From: a virus
Direction: 5' to 3' (one strand)
Length of the DNA: 31,424 nt
IMG/VR virus record: IMGVR_UViG_3300027805_000056
Location: 1-31,424 of that record
The notes below the pieces were generated by a model, which saw only the letters and a program-made list of their open reading frames with translations, was not told the origin of the DNA and ran no database searches. Positions 8,914-20,424 of this stretch are shown in pieces. Each line of letters begins with the position of its first letter. Positions within the stretch are counted from its first letter, which is position 1. A program made the translations under genes and the position numbers.

Positions 8914-9396
8914 GTGGGCTACAGCAAGCGCCAATTCCTGACCGCCGCGTTTACCGAGATCGGGCTGGCGTCCTATGTTTTCGACCTTCAACCCGAAGAC
9001 CTGGAATCGGCGCTTCGTCGCCTTGATTCGATGATGGCCGACTGGAACGGCAAGGGTATCCGCCTGGCCTACCCGCTTCCGGGTTCACCGGAAAGCAGCG
9101 ATCTCGATGGCGAGTCCGAAGTGCCTGACAGCGCCAACGAAGCAATCATCGCTAACCTGGCGATGCGATTGGCTCCGAGCTACGGCAAGCAGGTGTCGCC
9201 GCTGACCCTTGTCGCGGCGAAGACTGGTTACAACACCCTTCTGTCGCGTGCCACGATGCCCTACGAGCAGCAGTTCCCCGGAACGCTGCCATCTGGTGCT
9301 GGCAACAAGCCGTGGCGCGTCTACGACGATCCCTTTGCCCGTCCGCCGGTCGATCCGGTGTTGACTGGACCCGAGGGACCGTTGGAGTACAACTGA
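8914..9396 (+). CDS. Head completion / tail accessory protein, P22 gp4-like
   Basis: This 160-aa protein should bind under the portal ring after packaging, stabilise packaged DNA and start tail assembly. It has the family features of P22 gp4 (166 aa): an N-terminal YSKRQFLTAAFTEIGLASYVF segment, then LRRLDSMMADWNGKGIRLAYPL, and the strongly conserved EAIIANLAMRLAPSYGK block around residues 70-90. Translation begins at GTG 8914 with AAGGGG (8900-8905) upstream, two bases after the previous stop. It overlaps the fibre gene by one base (TGATG). Its order (coat, then gp4) is that of P22. Confidence 0.9.
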   Translation: MGYSKRQFLTAAFTEIGLASYVFDLQPEDLESALRRLDSMMADWNGKGIRLAYPLPGSPESSDLDGESEVPDSANEAIIANLAMRLAPSYGKQVSPLTLVAAKTGYNTLLSRATMPYEQQFPGTLPSGAGNKPWRVYDDPFARPPVDPVLTGPEGPLEYN

Positions 9397-11834
9397 TGCC
9401 GACTATCAATCAACTGCCGCTGCGTTCGCCTGTCAGTCTAGGCGATCAAATCCCTATCTACTCGCCTAACAACGGCGATGCGCGGCGCACTCCGGTTTCA
9501 GCGGTTGTTGATCTGGTTGTCAACGGTCTTGATTTACCAAACACGGCTGTTCTGTTGACCGGCAATCAGACAGTTGGTGGAACCAAGACCTTTTCGTCCG
9601 CAATCGTCGGGGACATCACCGGTAACGCCGGGACCGTCACGAACGGTGTCTATACCACCGGTAACCAGACAATCGGCGGAACGAAGACCTTCTCGTCCGC
9701 GATTGTCGGGGACATCACTGGAAACGCCGGGACCGTCACGAACGGCGTCTATACCACCGGCAACCAGACTATTGGTGGGACGAAGACGTTCTCCAGCACA
9801 ATCGTCGGGGACATCAGCGGGAATGCTGGCAGCGTCACCAATGGTGTGTACACCACCGGCAACCAGACAATCGGTGGCACCAAGACCTTCTCGTCCGCGA
9901 TTGTCGGGGACATCACTGGCAACGCTGCGACTGCAACTACCGCAACTACCGCAACTACCGCAACTACCGCAACTACCGCGGGCAGTGTAACCAATGGTGT
10001 TTACACTGTCGGTGACCAGACAATCGGTGGTACGAAGACATTCTCCGTCAACCCCATCCTGTCGGCTGGTACTGTCAACGCCATCCTAACGCTCGACGGT
10101 AGCAAGCAGATCAGCGCGGTTTCGGGGCTTACTTGGGACGGCACAAAGTCGAACTTGTCTCTCGGTGGCGTCACCGTTGGACAAGGTAATGCGCCTTCTG
10201 TCGGCAGTATCGCATTCGGCTTCCAAGCCCTACTTAACGCCACAAGTAGTAGTGGTTCTAATATAGCCATTGGCGACTACACACAGCGTTCTGCCACAAC
10301 AGGTGGTGTAAACGTAGCGATTGGGAGTTATGCGCTAAATTACAATACCACAGGGTCGTACAACGTGGCGATTGGTAATGGGTCGCTAAAGTACGGAATA
10401 GGGTCTTACAACACGGCAATAGGCGAATCCGCTTTAGCAAATAACGCTTCGCCGTTTGAGCATAATACCGCCGTTGGATACCAAGCGCTGTACTCCCAAG
10501 GTACCAATGACTCTTTTTCTACCGCTGTTGGAAGTCGTGCGGGTAGAAACGGTGGTGGCTTATACAACACGCTTCTTGGGTATAACTCGGGAAGGGATGT
10601 AGACAGTTCATACAACGTCATTCTTGGTTCCTTTACTGGCTACCAGTTTGGTATCCTTGATATCCGCATCACCGACAACAACATCGTCCTGTCGGACGGT
10701 GCTGGCAACCCCCGCAGCTACTACGACGGCCCCAACAACGCCTGGATTTGGCGCACGGGTGCGTCGGAGCGGTTGCGGCTTGATTCGTCGGGCAACGTTG
10801 CGTTCTCCGCCGGCACCGCCGCCGCCCCCGCGCTGACCACAATTGGCGACACAGATACGGGGGTGTTTTTCCCCGCCGCGAATAACTGGGCGGTGGCGAC
10901 GGGTGCGTCGGAGCGCATGCGCATCAGCAGTGCTGGGAATGTGGGAATTGGGACGACGAATCCGAATTTCCCGTTGCACGTTGCGGCCGCAGGCAATAAT
11001 CGCTTGGCCGTGGAATCGACGACAAGCGGCGCGGCATTGATAGGCCTATACGCTCCGACAGGTGCGCTGGCAGCATTTAACCAAATTCAGTCGATAGTCG
11101 GAGCCACAGAACACTGGGCAATTGGCGGTAACGGCTGGGAAAACACGCTTACGTTTAAGACCAACGGCCAAGAGCGCATGCGGATCACGAGCAGCGGTGA
11201 CGTTGGTATTGGGACTAGTTCGCCGGGCGCTAAGCTGGATGTCGCCGGCAATGTTAAGTGGTCTGGCACCGCATTTTTACCGAACGCCGGGACCATCCAA
11301 TGGGGCACTTCTGACTCAGCGGGGATTCAGGGCCGAGACAACAGCACCGGCAACGGATATCTGATTTTTTCCGTTAACAATGAAAAGATGCGGATTTTGC
11401 CGTCTGGCAACGTCGGTATTGGGACGACTGCGCCAACGTCAGGCATTGAACTTTTCAATGCCAGTGGGCAAACAACCGCAGCAATCACAACCGGCACCAA
11501 TGTAGGCTCGTTCATCACGTTGCGACACAATTCCGCCGCTGCTGGTGCAGGTGGTGGGGTCATTTTAGGTGCGCAAGGCGGCAACTTCGCCGCTATCAAG
11601 GGCCTTCTGTCCAACGGGGCCAACAACACCACAGGCGATTTGGCGTTTGCTACGCGGGGCGCATCGACTGATAGCGCTCTAACGGAGCGCATGCGGATTA
11701 AGGACACAGGTCAAACACGCTTCGTCCCCCTCGCCGCAGACCCGGCAGGAGCGGAATCCGGTGACGTCTACTACAACAGCGGCACCAACAAACTGCGTGT
11801 CTACAACGGCACCGCTTGGGTCGATCTCCACTGA
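9396..11834 (+). CDS. Long repetitive tail fibre protein
   Basis: This 812-aa fibre is probably a trimeric receptor-binding or side-tail fibre. In order: an N-terminal module MPTINQLP...GDQIPIYSPNNGD (residues 1-30) shared with the 150-aa protein at 12348; four to five 33-residue repeats of the TGNQTIGGTKTFSSAIVGDI type (about 55-210); a block of NVAIGSYAL/NTAIGESAL units like the Hep_Hag (YadA-like head) repeats (about 285-415); three to four ERMRISSAGNVGIGTT units (about 455-770); and a C-terminus with GDVYYNSGTNKLRVYNGTAW. The frame is open upstream to 9312, but ATG 9396 overlaps the gp4 stop and matches the N-terminus of the second fibre-type protein. No S74 chaperone domain is present. 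The Hep_Hag part is A+T-richer than the rest. Confidence 0.88.
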   Translation: MPTINQLPLRSPVSLGDQIPIYSPNNGDARRTPVSAVVDLVVNGLDLPNTAVLLTGNQTVGGTKTFSSAIVGDITGNAGTVTNGVYTTGNQTIGGTKTFSSAIVGDITGNAGTVTNGVYTTGNQTIGGTKTFSSTIVGDISGNAGSVTNGVYTTGNQTIGGTKTFSSAIVGDITGNAATATTATTATTATTATTAGSVTNGVYTVGDQTIGGTKTFSVNPILSAGTVNAILTLDGSKQISAVSGLTWDGTKSNLSLGGVTVGQGNAPSVGSIAFGFQALLNATSSSGSNIAIGDYTQRSATTGGVNVAIGSYALNYNTTGSYNVAIGNGSLKYGIGSYNTAIGESALANNASPFEHNTAVGYQALYSQGTNDSFSTAVGSRAGRNGGGLYNTLLGYNSGRDVDSSYNVILGSFTGYQFGILDIRITDNNIVLSDGAGNPRSYYDGPNNAWIWRTGASERLRLDSSGNVAFSAGTAAAPALTTIGDTDTGVFFPAANNWAVATGASERMRISSAGNVGIGTTNPNFPLHVAAAGNNRLAVESTTSGAALIGLYAPTGALAAFNQIQSIVGATEHWAIGGNGWENTLTFKTNGQERMRITSSGDVGIGTSSPGAKLDVAGNVKWSGTAFLPNAGTIQWGTSDSAGIQGRDNSTGNGYLIFSVNNEKMRILPSGNVGIGTTAPTSGIELFNASGQTTAAITTGTNVGSFITLRHNSAAAGAGGGVILGAQGGNFAAIKGLLSNGANNTTGDLAFATRGASTDSALTERMRIKDTGQTRFVPLAADPAGAESGDVYYNSGTNKLRVYNGTAWVDLH
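9558..9953 (+). repeat. Four 99-bp in-frame repeats inside the fibre gene
   Basis: Units begin at 9558, 9657, 9756 and 9855, each 99 bp (33 residues) and highly similar. A partial fifth resumes around 10006 after a short insertion. They encode the TGNQTIGGTKTF repeat. Recombination between units could lengthen or shorten the fibre in frame. Confidence 0.9.
9933..9977 (+). repeat. Five tandem 9-bp repeats (GCAACTACC) in the fibre gene
   Basis: Perfect contiguous copies start at 9933, 9942, 9951, 9960 and 9969. They encode an Ala-Thr-Thr run (about residues 180-194) at the end of the fourth 99-bp unit. A change in copy number keeps the frame, so slippage would alter only linker length. Confidence 0.95.
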
Positions 11835-13064: not shown

Positions 13065-14474
13065 GTGGCAACCATCCCCATCGTCTCCGGCATCTACACC
13101 GACAACGGCCCCGACCTCCGGGTGTCGTACCCGGTCAACATGGTGCCGACGCCGATCAACAGCGGTGCCGGGAACCTGTTCCTGCGGCCCGGGGATGGCC
13201 TTGTCCAGTCTGTCACCGGCCCTGGTCCTGATCGCGGCGGGATCAACTGGAACGGCGTCCACTACCGGGTAATGGGCAGCAAGCTCGTCAGCATCTCCTC
13301 GAACAACGTCGTCACGGTGCTCGGGGATGTTGGTGGTGCAGACGACCAACTCGTCGTGATGGACTACAGCTTCGACCTGCTCGGCATCGTGTCGAACAAC
13401 GCGCTGTGGTACTGGAACGCGACAACCGGCACCCTGACCCGCAACACCGCACTTGGTCGGGTCATTGACGCCTGCTGGATCGAGGGCTACTGGATGGCGA
13501 CGGATGGGCAGTTCCTGTTCGTCACCGACATCCTTAACCCGCTCGCCACGCTGCCGTTCTCCTACGACGCATCGGAGCGTGACCCGGACCCAATCAACGC
13601 GGTGTTGCGCCTGCGCAATGAGGTCTACGCGATCAACCGCAACACCATCGAGGTGTTCGACAACGTGGGCGGCGGCTTCTTCCCGTTCGCCCCCATCGAA
13701 GGTGCGCAGATTCAAAAAGGGTGCATCGGCACCCATGCGTCCTGCGTCTTCCTCGAATCAGTTGCCTTCCTCGGCGGTGGGCGCAACGAGGCGCCAAGCA
13801 TCTACCTCGGGGCCAACGCCACCGCCACAAAGATCAGCACGCAGGAGATCGACAACCTGCTGCTGAACTACACCGAGGCGCAACTCGCCCAGGTCAAGCT
13901 CGAAGCACGCAACGACCGTAACCATCAACTGCTGTACGTCCATCTGCCCGACCGCACGGTGGTCTACGATGCAGCCTCATCCCAAGCACTTCAGCAGTCT
14001 GTCTGGTACACCCTCACCAGCAGCGTCATGGGGTTCTCTCAGTACCGGGCGAAGAACTTCGTCTGGTGCTTCGACAAGTGGTTCGCGGGCGATCCGCAGT
14101 CAAACGCCGTCGGCTACGTCGACCGCGACATCAGCACGCACTGGGGTCAGAAGGTGCGCTGGGAGTTCGGCACGCCCATCGTCTACAACAAGACGAACGG
14201 TGCGATCTTCCACGAACTCGAACTGACGGCACTCCCCGGACGAGTGGCCATTGGTGTCGATCCGCAGATCAGCACGTCGTACAGTCTCAACGGTCTCTCG
14301 TGGTCGCAGCCGAAGTACATCCGCATCGGCAGTACAGGCAACCGTGAGAAGCGCCTGGTTTGGCGTCAGCAGGGCTTCATGCGCAACTGGCGCGTCCAGC
14401 GGTTCCAAGGTGATTCCGACTCTCACTTGTCGGCCATGAACCTTGAGATTCGCGTCGAACCTCTGGTGTACTGA
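13065..14474 (+). CDS. Packaged-DNA stabilisation / tail hub protein, P22 gp10-like
   Basis: This 469-aa protein corresponds to P22 gp10 (472 aa), which binds the gp4 ring and closes the portal channel together with the needle. Visible family features are the N-terminal PIVSGIYTDNGPDLRVSYPVNMVP, a repeated beta-rich region (residues 60-200) with DGQFLFVTD and EVYAINRNTIEVF, a central SVAFLGGGRNEAPSIYLG and NHQLLYVHLPDRTVVYD, and the C-terminal WRQQGFMRNWRVQRFQ. It uses GTG at 13065, one base after the previous stop. It sits two steps later than in P22 because the fibre island was placed between gp4 and gp10. The stop overlaps the next ATG by one base. Confidence 0.93.
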   Translation: MATIPIVSGIYTDNGPDLRVSYPVNMVPTPINSGAGNLFLRPGDGLVQSVTGPGPDRGGINWNGVHYRVMGSKLVSISSNNVVTVLGDVGGADDQLVVMDYSFDLLGIVSNNALWYWNATTGTLTRNTALGRVIDACWIEGYWMATDGQFLFVTDILNPLATLPFSYDASERDPDPINAVLRLRNEVYAINRNTIEVFDNVGGGFFPFAPIEGAQIQKGCIGTHASCVFLESVAFLGGGRNEAPSIYLGANATATKISTQEIDNLLLNYTEAQLAQVKLEARNDRNHQLLYVHLPDRTVVYDAASSQALQQSVWYTLTSSVMGFSQYRAKNFVWCFDKWFAGDPQSNAVGYVDRDISTHWGQKVRWEFGTPIVYNKTNGAIFHELELTALPGRVAIGVDPQISTSYSLNGLSWSQPKYIRIGSTGNREKRLVWRQQGFMRNWRVQRFQGDSDSHLSAMNLEIRVEPLVY

Positions 14475-15632: not shown

Positions 15633-16118
15633 ATGACGCCGCCGAGTTCGTGGCTTCCGGCTGCCTCTGAGGACGTCATGGTCGACTCGCTACGGTCTCA
15701 CTTCGCGTCGCTGATGTTGCCGCCTGCTGCGCAGGAGTGGCTGCTCATGCTATGGCAAGCGATCCAGACGTTTGACGACTACGCTGACAACGATGCCGTC
15801 AAGCGCGACGATCTGGATGCGACGATCTGGAACACCCTGGTCGCCATGCCGCAGAACCCGTTCTTCGCGCAGCACGCGGCGGCACTGCTCTCGGCCTTGT
15901 CGGTTCTGATCCTCAAATGGCAGGCAAGTGATCGACAAGAGCGTGCCGGTGCTGCTGATGCAAGGTCGTTTGTCTGGCGAGCCGGGTACTACGACGTCGT
16001 GCTGCTGACGGTGCAACTCGTCCACGGTCCTGCTGCTGCAACGTCTGTGTCGAGCAAGGTGCTCGGGTTGTACGGTGAGTCGCTGGACGACTACATGAAG
16101 GAGTTCGGCAATGCCTAA
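15633..16118 (+). CDS. Conserved helical phage protein in the P22 gp14 slot
   Basis: This 161-aa, mainly helical protein contains WQAIQTFDDYADNDAVKRDD, IWNTLVAMPQNPFFAQHA and LILKWQASDRQERAG...SFVWRAGYYDVV, a run of motifs that recur in uncharacterised phage proteins next to ejection genes. P22 has gene 14 (172 aa, involved in virion assembly) at this place, just before gene 7; equivalence is suggested by position and length only. ATG 15633 is taken as start, although TTG 15621 is in frame. The end overlaps the next gene by eight bases. Confidence 0.72.
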   Translation: MTPPSSWLPAASEDVMVDSLRSHFASLMLPPAAQEWLLMLWQAIQTFDDYADNDAVKRDDLDATIWNTLVAMPQNPFFAQHAAALLSALSVLILKWQASDRQERAGAADARSFVWRAGYYDVVLLTVQLVHGPAAATSVSSKVLGLYGESLDDYMKEFGNA

Positions 16119-17055
16119 CCCAATCGTTGCAATCGCGGGATCGTCACTCATCGGTGGTGCGATGCAGTCGCGGTCCGCGAGCAAGGCCGCAGACGCACAA
16201 TCGCAATCTGCCCAAGCCGGCATTGAAGAACAGCGCCGCCAGTTCGACGAGATTCGCAGGCTGCTCGCCCCGTATGTCGAGGTCGGCACGCCTGCGCTCG
16301 AAGCGCAGCGGGCGCTGTTGGGCCTCGGTGGCGCAGGCGCACAGCAGCAGGCAATCCGCCAGATCGAGCGCAGCCCGTTCTTCCAGAGCCAGATTGAGCA
16401 GGGCGAGCGAGCCATGCTGCAGCGTGCCGGTGCGACGGGTGGCCTTCGCGGTGGCAACTTGCAGGCGGGGCTTGCCCAGTTCCGTCCCGCGCTGCTTCAG
16501 CAAGCCATCGAACAGCAGTACGCCCGCCTTGGGGGCATGACGTCGCTGGGCCAGCAGTCTGCCGCTGGTGTGGGCACCGCTGGTCAGGCGATGGGTGGCA
16601 ACATCAGCAATTTGCTCCAGCAGCAGGGTGCTGCACAGGCTGGCGGCATTCTCGGGGCCACTGCACCATTCGCGCAGATGGCGCAGTTGCCGATGCAGAT
16701 GGCGGGCTTGAATTACGCCCGCACGGGGCAGTTCGGCATCCCGGGCCTGTTCGGTGGAACTCCGATCACGCAAGCGGCCAATACTTACGGCACCATTCCG
16801 GGATCCGAGCAGACCCTAATGCTTGCACAGCAAGACTTCGGTATGCCCACGTACAGTGACCGCCGACTCAAGCGCGATGTCCGACGCATCAGCACTCGAA
16901 AAGACGGCCTCGGGGTGTACTCGTTCGAGTACGTGTGGGGCGGTGGTCGACACATTGGGCTGATGGCGCAGGAAGTCGTCAACGTCTACCCCGAAGCAGT
17001 CGGGTCCATTGGCGACTTTATGACGGTGAACTACTCCATGATTCCGGAGGCGTGA
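16111..17055 (+). CDS. DNA ejection protein, P22 gp7-like, with C-terminal S74 domain
   Basis: This 314-aa virion protein is expelled into the host to help DNA entry. The N-terminus has a hydrophobic segment (IVAIAGSSLIGGAM, residues 5-18), then the family region EEQRRQFDEIRRLLAPYVEV, ALLGLGG, ERSPFFQSQIEQGERAMLQ and ATGGLRGGNLQAGLA. The last 66 residues are an S74-type intramolecular chaperone/self-cleaving domain: YSDRRLKRDVRRI, then VYSFEYVW...HIGLMAQEVVNVYPEAV. The Ser249 and Lys254 spacing (five residues) equals that of the catalytic dyad in endosialidase chaperone domains. Cleavage before Ser249 would leave a mature protein of 248 residues. AAGGAG lies at 16098-16103. Confidence 0.88.
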   Translation: MPNPIVAIAGSSLIGGAMQSRSASKAADAQSQSAQAGIEEQRRQFDEIRRLLAPYVEVGTPALEAQRALLGLGGAGAQQQAIRQIERSPFFQSQIEQGERAMLQRAGATGGLRGGNLQAGLAQFRPALLQQAIEQQYARLGGMTSLGQQSAAGVGTAGQAMGGNISNLLQQQGAAQAGGILGATAPFAQMAQLPMQMAGLNYARTGQFGIPGLFGGTPITQAANTYGTIPGSEQTLMLAQQDFGMPTYSDRRLKRDVRRISTRKDGLGVYSFEYVWGGGRHIGLMAQEVVNVYPEAVGSIGDFMTVNYSMIPEA

Positions 17056-17056
17056 C

Positions 17057-18544
17057 ATGGTTCAGCCGATCAACTACACCATCCCCGTCGCCGATCCCTT
17101 CGAGAGTCTGACGAGGGGGATGAAGCTGGGCCTGCAGATGGAGCAGGTGCAGGCTGCGCGGCAGCAGCGGGCCATGGAGGCGCAGCAGATGCAGGCTGAG
17201 ATGGCTGCGGCGCGGCAGAAGGCCGAGCAAGATGCTGCCAAGGCTGCGGAACTCGTACGTCTCCAAGAAGTTCCGCTGGAGGACATGACCCAAGCGCAGC
17301 GGTTCCGACTGATGGAACTCACGCAGAGTGAGGCCACCCGGGCGCACATGGCTCGTGCCTATGAGAGTCTGAGCACCGAGCAGCGCGCAAACCAGGCTCG
17401 TAACTCGGGCAGTCTGATTGTTGCGCTGGGGTCCAACCCTCAAGTCGGCATTCGACGCCTGCAGACGATGATTGAGGCGGAGAAAGACCCCGCTCAGAAG
17501 CAAGCACTCCAGGTCGCACTTCAGATCGCTGAGGTCAATCCCCTTGAGGCGGCGAAGATGATCGACGGCACGCTTTCAATGGCGGGGCCTGAGTTCAGCA
17601 AGGTCGCGGAGTCGGCGCGCAACTACCTCAAGAACACGGGTAAGCCGCTGTACCCGGAGCAAGAGAAACCCATCGTGGTTGGGCGTGAAAGCTCGGTGTT
17701 CATGCCCGGAACCCGTGAATTCTTGACCCCTCCCGCACCACCCACACCCCCTGTTTCGGTTGGCCGCGGTGGTGGCGCACCCACTGCTGAAAAACCTGCC
17801 AAGCCCGGCAAGGCTGTCAAGGTGGTCGACCCCGATACGGGCAAGATCGTCATGGTTTCGGAGCAGGAAGCTATTGAGCGACGTATGACTCCAGCCGAAG
17901 GGTTGGAAGGGTTGTCGCCCAAAGAGATCCAGCGCCGCGAAGCGACGTTCCCGCAAGCCAGACAATCTGTGCGATCTGTTACGTCCACGATGTCGACCAT
18001 TGAGGAGACCATTGACCGACTTCTCAAGAACAAGAGTGGTTTGAGCCAGGCCACTGGTTTCATCCTTGGTCGAGAGATGGTTCCCGCTGTGACAGACGAG
18101 GCTCGCCTCGCAGTGGCCGACATCAACCAACTGAAGAACCTCGCATTCGTTCAGGGGTTGACTGAACTTCGTCAAGCATCCACCACTGGGGCCGGCGTCG
18201 GTAACGTGTCGAACAAGGAAGGTGATCGCTTTGAGAACATAAAGGCTTCGCTTGATCGGGTGCAGTCTTACGACGATCTTGTAGCCTCATTGAAGCGACT
18301 CAAAGCACAGGCTACGAATACGAAGTCGTCGATGCAAACGGCGTTCGACGACACTTACGAATATCGTCAGCAGCAAGCACAACCGCCCGCACCCCCGGGT
18401 GCCCCGCAACCGCCTGCTGCTGGTGGTAGATTTCCTACGCCTCCTCAAGCAGCAATTGACGCGCTGCGGCAAGGGCGTGGTACTGACGCACAATTCGATG
18501 CGATTTTTGGCCCCGGGGCTGCGGCAAGGGCGAGGGGGCGCTAA
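17057..18544 (+). CDS. DNA ejection protein, P22 gp20 slot
   Basis: This 495-aa virion protein is the second of three in the ejection set. Residues 15-75 are a Gln/Ala/Glu-rich coiled coil (MEQVQAARQQRAMEAQQMQA), residues 215-245 are a Pro- and Gly-rich linker (PPAPPTPPVSVGRGGG), residues 300-420 are helical and hold LKNLAFVQGLTELRQAS and GAGVGNVSNKEGDRF, and the C-terminus (AIDALRQGRGTDAQFDAIFG) is a short tail often seen in podovirus ejection proteins. The start is well supported by GGAGG at 17045-17049. The stop shares one base with the next ATG (TAATG). Assignment to gp20 rests on order and architecture because these proteins diverge fast. Confidence 0.8.
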   Translation: MVQPINYTIPVADPFESLTRGMKLGLQMEQVQAARQQRAMEAQQMQAEMAAARQKAEQDAAKAAELVRLQEVPLEDMTQAQRFRLMELTQSEATRAHMARAYESLSTEQRANQARNSGSLIVALGSNPQVGIRRLQTMIEAEKDPAQKQALQVALQIAEVNPLEAAKMIDGTLSMAGPEFSKVAESARNYLKNTGKPLYPEQEKPIVVGRESSVFMPGTREFLTPPAPPTPPVSVGRGGGAPTAEKPAKPGKAVKVVDPDTGKIVMVSEQEAIERRMTPAEGLEGLSPKEIQRREATFPQARQSVRSVTSTMSTIEETIDRLLKNKSGLSQATGFILGREMVPAVTDEARLAVADINQLKNLAFVQGLTELRQASTTGAGVGNVSNKEGDRFENIKASLDRVQSYDDLVASLKRLKAQATNTKSSMQTAFDDTYEYRQQQAQPPAPPGAPQPPAAGGRFPTPPQAAIDALRQGRGTDAQFDAIFGPGAAARARGR

Positions 18545-20424
18545 TGGCTACCAACCCGTTCGCTCAGTTTGTTCAAGAAGAAGTCAACCCATTCGCTCAG
18601 TTCGCAACACCGACCCCCACCACCCCACCCGGTCAGATCCCCGGCGCCCCTGCCAGTCTCGTCGCGCCGCCCAGCGTTCCCCCAACGACGCCCCTCGGCC
18701 AGCGAGCAATCCAGATAATTCGACCCACCGTGGAAGCACTTGGTACGGTTGCGGGTGGCGTCATCGGTGGTGGCACTGGCGCAGTGGGTGGTAGCGTTGT
18801 CCCTGGTCCCGGCACTGTGGCCGGCGGTACGCTCGGCGCTGTGACCGGCGCGGGCCTCGGGTACGGCATCGCCAAGGGTGGTCTTGATCTGCTTGAGCAG
18901 TCTCTCGGGTATCGGGAGGGGCCGAAGACCGCTCAGGAGGCGCTGGTCGGTGGTGCGCGGGATGTTCTGACTGGGGCAGCATACGAGACTGCTGGACGTC
19001 TGGCCGCACCCCTTGTTGCGAGGGGTCTGGAAGGTCTTGCCGCGTTGCCCGGACGTGCTCTCGACTTCAGAGGTAAGCAGGCCACGAAGATCGCCCGCGA
19101 TGCTGCCGGTAAAGAGATTGACGCAATCCGCGCAGCATTGCGAGGTGCTGCACCAGGTGAGACGCCCGCGCAAGCAACCGCTGGTATCCAACGCAACGCA
19201 TGGCAGTCGCTACTCGAACTCGGTAAAGAAACCGATCAGATGAGCGTCACGCTGAAGAACCAAAGCGATGACCTGCTGAACGAACTTTCGCGCATGGCGC
19301 AGGGTGGCAATCAGACCGATATTGCCAACTCCATCGACGCCTCGCGCAAGGTGCTCAATGCGCTGACAAAGCCGATGCGCGAAACGTCACTCGACGCCGC
19401 AAATCAGCAAAAAGCCAACAGTCTGAACTATGTCAACACTATGCTTCAGCGCATCTTCTTGCAGAAGCAGGTTCCTCTACCGCAAGGGTTTCCGCCACTG
19501 AGCGTAGATCGAATTGTTGGCGCCATTGACGAGGCGAGGATGCAACCTGGTGCGCGAGTCAGTACGACGCAGCAACAAGTCCTCGGTCGACTGCGTGCTC
19601 AGATTCTCAACGCCGCCGAAATGAACGGCGGCACCATTGATGCCTACGATCTCTACACCATTCGCAAAGAAGGGGTCAACGAGATCATCGACGCGCTGAT
19701 GGTCGGTCGTGATCCCAAAGTAAGCAAGCAGGTCGCGGCAGACGTTCTCGGCATTGTTCGACCGGAGATCGACAACGCGATCATGCGAGCCGGTGGTACG
19801 GAGTGGAAGAACTATCTCGACACGTTTTCCAAAGGTGCGAAAGACCTAGAGAAGCGGCAGATGGCTGCTGAAGCGTTCCGCATGTTCAAGGACTCTCCGC
19901 AGGAATACGTCAAGCTCGCGCGGGGTAACAACCCCGATGCGGTCGAGGCTATTTTCGGACCGGGCAACTACAACATCTTCAAAGAGATGTCGAACGAGAT
20001 GTCTACTTTGAACAAGGTCGCCTCGTATGTCGAACGTGAGGGTGTTATCGCAAATGCCGCAAAGGGCGGGCGAGAGGAACTTGCGCGAATTCTGAAAAAG
20101 CACCGCAAGCACACTCTGATTCCGAACTGGTTCAACCCATGGGTGACAACTGCCAACATGCAACTTCGGAACATTCAGGATCGACTGAATACCGAAACCA
20201 TGCAAGTGATTGAGCGTGCCGCGCAGTCGAACCAGTCAATGCTCGATCTTCTCGAAGGTTTGCCTCGCGGCGAGCGCAGCAAGTTGATGAAGATGATCAA
20301 CGGGCTTGGTAGGATGGGCGCACCTGTTGTCCAGACCCCCGCCGCCCGTGGTGCCCTCGTCGCCACGATGGCACCAGAAGAACAGCAACCTCAAGGCATC
20401 ATGTCCCCCGAGGAGCAACAATGA
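18544..20424 (+). CDS. Large DNA ejection protein, P22 gp16 slot
   Basis: This 626-aa protein has the usual features of the largest ejection protein: a Pro-rich N-terminus with two copies of NPFAQF (residues 4-9 and 17-22), then Gly-rich hydrophobic segments (VEALGTVAGGVIGGGTGAVG and TLGAVTGAGLGYGIAKGG, about residues 60-120) that can insert in membranes, and a long helical body (residues 170-590). P22 gp16 is 609 aa and is ejected into the host envelope. No lytic transglycosylase motif is visible. It starts at TAATG overlapping the previous stop, with a G-rich AGGGGG sequence before it, and overlaps the tailspike gene by four bases. Confidence 0.78.
   Translation: MATNPFAQFVQEEVNPFAQFATPTPTTPPGQIPGAPASLVAPPSVPPTTPLGQRAIQIIRPTVEALGTVAGGVIGGGTGAVGGSVVPGPGTVAGGTLGAVTGAGLGYGIAKGGLDLLEQSLGYREGPKTAQEALVGGARDVLTGAAYETAGRLAAPLVARGLEGLAALPGRALDFRGKQATKIARDAAGKEIDAIRAALRGAAPGETPAQATAGIQRNAWQSLLELGKETDQMSVTLKNQSDDLLNELSRMAQGGNQTDIANSIDASRKVLNALTKPMRETSLDAANQQKANSLNYVNTMLQRIFLQKQVPLPQGFPPLSVDRIVGAIDEARMQPGARVSTTQQQVLGRLRAQILNAAEMNGGTIDAYDLYTIRKEGVNEIIDALMVGRDPKVSKQVAADVLGIVRPEIDNAIMRAGGTEWKNYLDTFSKGAKDLEKRQMAAEAFRMFKDSPQEYVKLARGNNPDAVEAIFGPGNYNIFKEMSNEMSTLNKVASYVEREGVIANAAKGGREELARILKKHRKHTLIPNWFNPWVTTANMQLRNIQDRLNTETMQVIERAAQSNQSMLDLLEGLPRGERSKLMKMINGLGRMGAPVVQTPAARGALVATMAPEEQQPQGIMSPEEQQ

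Follow-up and report, generated by a model that had tools for sequence, protein, structure and literature searches.

The window, by which we mean the whole stretch of 31,424 nucleotides analysed here (IMG/VR virus record IMGVR_UViG_3300027805_000056), encodes a small ejection protein of the P22 gp7 family whose C-terminus is an exchangeable cassette, frequently gained and lost, and we hold with moderate confidence that the observations as a whole are best explained if this cassette brings in a putatively self-cutting Peptidase_S74 domain that has no trimerising helix. The cut itself, predicted between Tyr248 and Ser249 of gp7, appears to us somewhat better than an even chance. S74 domains are known from spikes, fibres and MYRF, where they sense folding in a trimer-dependent way. 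The identity of both domains of the 314-aa ORF is near certain: P22_gp7 (PF25688) matches residues 19-178 (E 1.8e-11, 44.7 bits against a curated cut-off of 28), Peptidase_S74 (PF13884) matches residues 249-297 (E 8.2e-10, 39.3 bits against 22), and in PHROGs the ORF finds phrog_598, 'DNA ejection' (E 2.2e-38). The gene order is also of the P22 type, with the phrog_578 head-closure gene upstream at 13065 and phrog_2534 directly downstream of gp7. When PF13884 was searched over the whole record it gave a single match (E 2.2e-12), so strong that chance can be left aside for the gp7 domain; scanning all six frames with a custom S74 HMM gave E 6.5e-35 there, a value obtained by construction because the alignment includes the window's own domain, and nothing else below E 3.7. 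The sequence-only reading had recognised a 66-residue S74 domain with a correctly spaced Ser249/Lys254 pair (+5) on a gp7-like protein, and this is borne out by the match above the Pfam cut-off, by the dyad spacing of five and by Asp250 directly after Ser249. Its range of 16858-17055 lies one codon late, opening at Asp250 and taking in the stop codon, so that 16855-17052 is correct (Table 1).

Table 1. Features of the gp7-type gene and its neighbourhood in the window
Feature	Coordinates	Strand	Basis
gp7-type ejection protein (P22 family) of 314 aa, S74 at its C-terminus	16111..17055	+	Pfam, PHROGs
gp7 core, about residues 1-218, common to S74-less relatives; predicted helical within 17-177	16111..16764	+	nucleotide comparison, model
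Linker, residues 219-248, within the exchanged segment; pLDDT about 40-52, probably disordered	16765..16854	+	nucleotide comparison, model
Peptidase_S74 domain lacking the helix, residues 249-314; cut predicted at Tyr248/Ser249	16855..17052	+	Pfam, alignment, model
Ser249 codon; equivalent to MyRF Ser587 and endoNF Ser911	16855..16857	+	alignment
Lys254 codon; equivalent to MyRF Lys592 and endoNF Lys916	16870..16872	+	alignment
Next ejection-protein gene	17057..18544	+	phrog_2534 'released from the phage upon host infection'
Candidate third ejection protein, at the place of gp16	18544..20424	+	inference from gene order only; weak phrog_36512, unknown function
Head closure Hc3, anchor of the P22-type synteny	13065..14474	+	phrog_578
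Long fibre without S74	9396..11834	+	Pfam, S74 HMM scan

Among the best 80 viral relatives of gp7, 31 carry S74, 46 are complete ORFs without it and three are cut off. In a phylogeny built from 61 gp7 cores (27 with and 34 without S74), presence of the domain changes at least 14 times, nine of the changes being forced by well-supported branches; since shuffling gave a mean of 20.3 changes, presence is still clustered on the tree. The row nearest to the window, L004, is S74-less, and its core is 98% identical over 205 columns. In nucleotide comparisons, made with metagenome phages known from sequence only, the window is 97.2% and 98.8% identical to L004 on the two sides of the cassette; with L008 the identity is 93.6% before the cassette, as far as 16766, and 98.8% beyond it, starting at 17045, the 278 bp between these sides being replaced by 57 bp. 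Several short alternative Gly-rich tails (GLPSYAVMP, GGMTGFFGGYGTGGD) recur at the C-termini of S74-less gp7 proteins such as L003, L047 and L058, which makes the whole C-terminal segment of gp7 look like a site of swapping. The end of the L004 gp7 gene also shares, in another frame, the closing bases of the window's S74 gene (around 17028-17059); this common sequence lies over what seems to be the ribosome-binding site of the next gene, and may be either a remnant or pre-existing sequence.

The S74 domain on gp7 is under purifying selection, its dN/dS (median 0.06, pooled 0.15) being lower than that of the core (0.21 by both measures), as calculated on the 70 of 465 pairs (151 computable) that fell in the chosen dS range and that, sharing ancestry, are not independent. 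These values also disfavour S74 as neutral baggage. The cassette behaviour could be read in another way, with S74 as an exchangeable module for interaction with some partner in the host or the virion, under diversifying selection and with proteolysis incidental, and the number of gains and losses, the clean replacement between near-identical flanks and the variety of short tails on the S74-less forms all agree with it; however, a domain so constrained is unlike a diversifying binding surface, the near-identity of the immediate flanks means that no partner located there co-varies, and we regard this reading as improbable.

To judge the active site, S74 ORFs were gathered from viral contigs, named phages and bacterial genomes, and because the best 80 loci per search were taken, the resulting set of at least 179 distinct helix-less domains (167 C-terminal and 12 internal) is no census. 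Left out beforehand were ORFs open at the 3' end, except those with an internal domain, domains scoring below 15 bits, duplicate domain sequences and seven domains whose tails reached 27 aa or more; seven whose tails measured 21-26 aa (L227, L237, L259, L260, L261, L265 and L293) passed the tail limit. The 'minimal' S74 domain noticed earlier is thus no peculiarity of this phage. The serine is kept in 178 of the 179 domains and the lysine in all of them (52/53 and 53/53 when counted per cluster under 60% identity), the only loss of serine being in L231, a 101-aa ORF with a stop in the upstream frame, while the positions between the two vary by cluster (R251 is R in 30, E in 11, A in 3, I in 3, and so on; L253 is L in 38, A in 6, V in 5, and so on). 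The main search patterns, for viral contigs and bacterial genomes, covered only residues 281-289 and so favour Gly283 and Ala286, not the dyad. Seven of the 179 domains came from a scan with one pattern spanning the dyad; without them the counts are 171/172 for serine and 172/172 for lysine, and the two scans with the 281-289 patterns alone give 134/135 and 135/135. The residues of the MyRF cleavage centre, mapped onto gp7 by counting in the alignments by hand, also have their matches in the clusters: R590 corresponds to R252 (R in 49/53), Y615 to F272 (aromatic in 53/53), Y617 to Y274 (aromatic in 51/53) and V669 to V306 (53/53). Against catalysis it counts that Asp250, Gly283, Ala286, Val306 and Tyr308 show roughly the same conservation as the dyad (Gly283 and Ala286 lying inside the search patterns), so that Ser and Lys could in principle be structural.

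The predicted cut would leave a protein of 248 aa, inside the length range of S74-less gp7 proteins, which have 216-295 residues (median 238.5, n=46), and S74-bearing ones have 220-270 residues ahead of the serine (median 243, n=30), both counted from the first start codon. Ten fused ORFs of 1113-1767 aa (one of them cut off) hold an internal helix-less S74 domain, which is followed by a lytic domain in L101 and L188 (SLT), L211 (GH108) and L241 (Phage_lysozyme2) and, below the cut-off, by VanY in L210; no Pfam lytic domain was found in the other five. The first serine comes after 267-291 residues in seven of the ten, and after 350, 490 and 639 residues in the remaining three. The fused ORF of MW202675, annotated 'internal virion protein D', has its serine at position 277. 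The part before the first serine resembles stand-alone S74 proteins in nine; in six, about 100-200 aa of the part after it resemble ORFs found up to 4 kb downstream of stand-alone S74 genes. Two long ejection-type fusions, L188:2682-6650 and L234:1460-6763, contain two helix-less S74 domains each. With S74 inside these ORFs and a cell-wall hydrolase after it in five (one below the cut-off), the fusions suggest polyprotein processing at S74, although the three with the serine elsewhere and the five without a Pfam lytic domain count against such a cut.

We envisage that the S74 domain would fold and then, while the particle is being assembled, sever its own chain between Tyr248 and Ser249; the mature gp7 set free in this way would be as long as the gp7 genes of S74-less relatives make it from the outset. 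Local crowding of gp7 at the portal (about a dozen copies, the value for P22), or else a partner, would stand in for the trimerising helix, and in the fused phages the same cut would part the small ejection protein from the one that follows it, which is sometimes lytic.

The main difficulty for self-cleavage is the end of the chain, which stops in the window where the C-terminal coiled-coil helix (alpha4) of the known S74 chaperones starts. This helix is absent from the window protein and from all 30 complete gp7-S74 relatives examined, in which zero (20/30) or three (10/30) residues follow the motif V-D/N-Y-S/G-x-V/I. In structural comparison the last residue, 314, superposes on MyRF 677, so that the zipper positions and alpha4 heptads are missing, and with them the C-terminal coiled coil of CIMCD/ICA domains. 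AlphaFold2 models the isolated domain with block pLDDT mostly of 91-95, as a compact beta/alpha unit with just a short helical turn near its end; in the model of the whole protein (mean pLDDT 63, S74 blocks 87-96) the helical core at 17-177 is followed by a low-confidence stretch at about 178-246. Where CIMCD/ICA domains have a trimeric beta-helical stalk upstream, this single-chain model has a low-confidence linker, which is probably disordered. Foldseek returned no significant PDB match (best E 0.52), and VIA-align ranked MyRF ICA (7dc3) first (Z 3.6, rmsd 2.5 over 53 residues) with unrelated kinases just below it at about Z 3, the family assignment resting on sequence and not on the structure search. 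A domain profile against PDB sequences found MyRF (7dc3), two tail fibres (one long) and GA-1 gp12 (3gud), all weakly (E 0.001 to 0.03); the chain of 3gud starts at the serine equivalent to Ser249. A further match, to ThreeFoil, looks like a repeat artefact. Nothing favours the restoration of alpha4 by frameshift or readthrough past the stop, as judged by eye in three frames of the S74-bearing gp7 genes with no coiled-coil program: 3' of the stop, the sole long open frame in most relatives belongs to the next gene, and this gene opens with a start codon of its own, in a frame that differs between relatives. In the window it turns helix-rich after about 30 residues, and a shifted gp7 fusion is for that reason still conceivable.

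It had also been proposed from the sequence that the domain assists trimerisation of the ejection protein, and this is unlikely given the absence of alpha4 in the window and its 30 relatives, the probably disordered linker and the existence of a 98%-identical core without S74. In MyRF, trimerisation is driven by alpha4, a helix of four heptads with K671 at its top, and cleavage depends on the trimer (PMC8326128); an intact alpha4 zipper is needed, zipper mutants of MYRF losing their processing (PMC3742443). These requirements count against a cut in gp7, as does the arginine of the upstream beta-helix that participates in endoNF cleavage (PMC8326128), where the window has its linker. It may then be that the S74 fold and active site are kept but no cutting occurs, because alpha4 and a trimeric stalk are missing, and that the domain stays on gp7 as a cap or oligomerising end and is ejected with the protein. 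The uniform lack of alpha4 and the MYRF mutant L683A, which still oligomerises yet shows no self-processing (PMC3742443), favour this alternative, but strict retention of Ser and Lys across highly diverged domains is hard to explain without catalysis, and most fused ORFs have the cut site positioned as in stand-alone S74 proteins; we consider it rather unlikely, although the strongest of the competing readings.

The long fibre of the window has four E-R/K-MRI repeats, three of which are then followed by G-N/D-VGIGT, and ends in ...RVYNGTAWVDLH. That this fibre is devoid of S74, in which such repeats were said usually to end, was already noticed in the sequence-only reading, and both the PF13884 search and the six-frame HMM scan agree, finding no S74 in the fibre or elsewhere in the record besides gp7. 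The N-terminal part of the fibre (9396-10050) consists of near-identical TGNQTIGGTKTFSSAIVGDITGNAGTVTNGVYT repeats (BppL_N). Repeats of this kind on a fibre with no S74 would fit an S74 domain that acts in trans on the fibre as a detached chaperone or protease, as had been suggested; yet known S74 cleavage targets its own chain (PMC8326128 and PMC3742443), and the related genomes do not follow such a pattern. For 42 of the 80 relatives we searched the record, a contig that may be a fragment, with PF13884: the 17 with S74-gp7 gave one match each except G022, in which a second match lies in a fibre-like ORF, and the 25 with S74-less gp7 gave none. Action in trans, or displacement from the fibre, is accordingly very improbable. 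One S74 domain exchanged between fibre and gp7, with a complementary distribution, was not seen in these 42 records and is rejected for this sample. The contig of L043 and L082 has a gp7-S74 without alpha4 and also a fibre-like ORF (L082:841-1788) with full S74 and a coiled-coil-like tail, so that this phage group can make both forms.

The pairing of S74 with ejection or structural proteins is not new, since such genes are named in GenBank for Pseudoalteromonas virus vB_PspP-H6/1, Sulfitobacter phage phiGT1 (in a record note) and Rhizobium phages (in product names). H6/1 gp17 ('putative ejection protein', note 'pfam13884') likewise has a C-terminal helix-less S74 and two further putative ejection proteins downstream, but its N-terminal part is diverged and it is known by annotation only. 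In phiGT1 gp17, pCB2047-A and -C, EBPR podovirus 2 and Rhizobium phages, a helix-less S74 also sits on a small protein, its gene being directly before a peptidoglycan-hydrolase gene in phiGT1, pCB2047-C and EBPR podovirus 2; unlike the window protein, these belong to another N-terminal family, P22_gp7 being found in only three of 40 S74-protein cluster representatives. All 40 match phrog_6121 ('virion structural protein'), whose profile seems to contain S74 as well; 20 match phrog_4287, 'DNA ejection protein', and four phrog_598. A long downstream ORF was obtained in 35 of 49 rows, with Pfam Phage_lysozyme2 in three, SLT in three and phrog_26675 (endolysin) in five. Judged by the names in the record titles, most of the bacterial S74 set is alphaproteobacterial; a shared 'chaperone of endosialidase' gene of alphaproteobacterial phages is named, without discussion, in PMC10783043. 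Sinorhizobium phage phiM5 gp27 (L300:1834-3240) has a C-terminal helix-less S74 and lies directly before an internal virion protein/exolysin gene; its depositors, in contrast to our assignment of the window gp7, named it 'putative tailspike protein/chaperone of endosialidase', but its S74 form and gene position suggest an ejection protein. It is annotated as 'detected in phage particle proteome', which we count for self-cleavage together with the near-invariant dyad, the matched MyRF centre, the low dN/dS, the length match and the serine positions in the fused ORFs.

MYRF/MyRF ICA (7dc3) and the endosialidase NF CIMCD (3GW6) share with the window domain the Ser-Lys dyad and the surrounding aromatic and Gly/Val residues, and differ from it by their alpha4 coiled coil and their trimeric stalk. 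P22 gp7 has the same N-terminal core family and, at 229 aa, the length of the S74-less forms. According to PMC8402733, it is present in about 12 copies per virion, binds procapsids via residues 21-154 and has its N-terminus trimmed by the host protease OpdA. Trimming at the C-terminus would therefore be compatible with assembly, although of another kind. Among the matches listed for openly licensed PMC literature we found nothing on the helix-less form, on how its dyad is conserved or on its behaviour as a cassette, nor did any title or opening of an abstract there describe S74 in ejection or virion proteins.

We would venture, as a possibility on the unlikely side, that helix-less S74 domains are a separate, compact class of self-cleaving domains for phage ejection proteins, a cassette that needs no trimeric coiled coil, moves from one ejection protein to another and removes itself, and that in fused forms would split an ejection polyprotein into a small protein of the pore and one that cuts the cell wall, so that cleavage would be timed with assembly or ejection. 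Because the helix that the known relatives need is missing, whether and when the gp7 S74 domain cuts is a clear, testable question. A large group of S74 domains that has kept the catalytic centre and dropped the trimerising helix, on proteins of the DNA-delivery channel, tests what the chemistry requires, and it points to an unstudied processing step in the ejection proteins of podophages.
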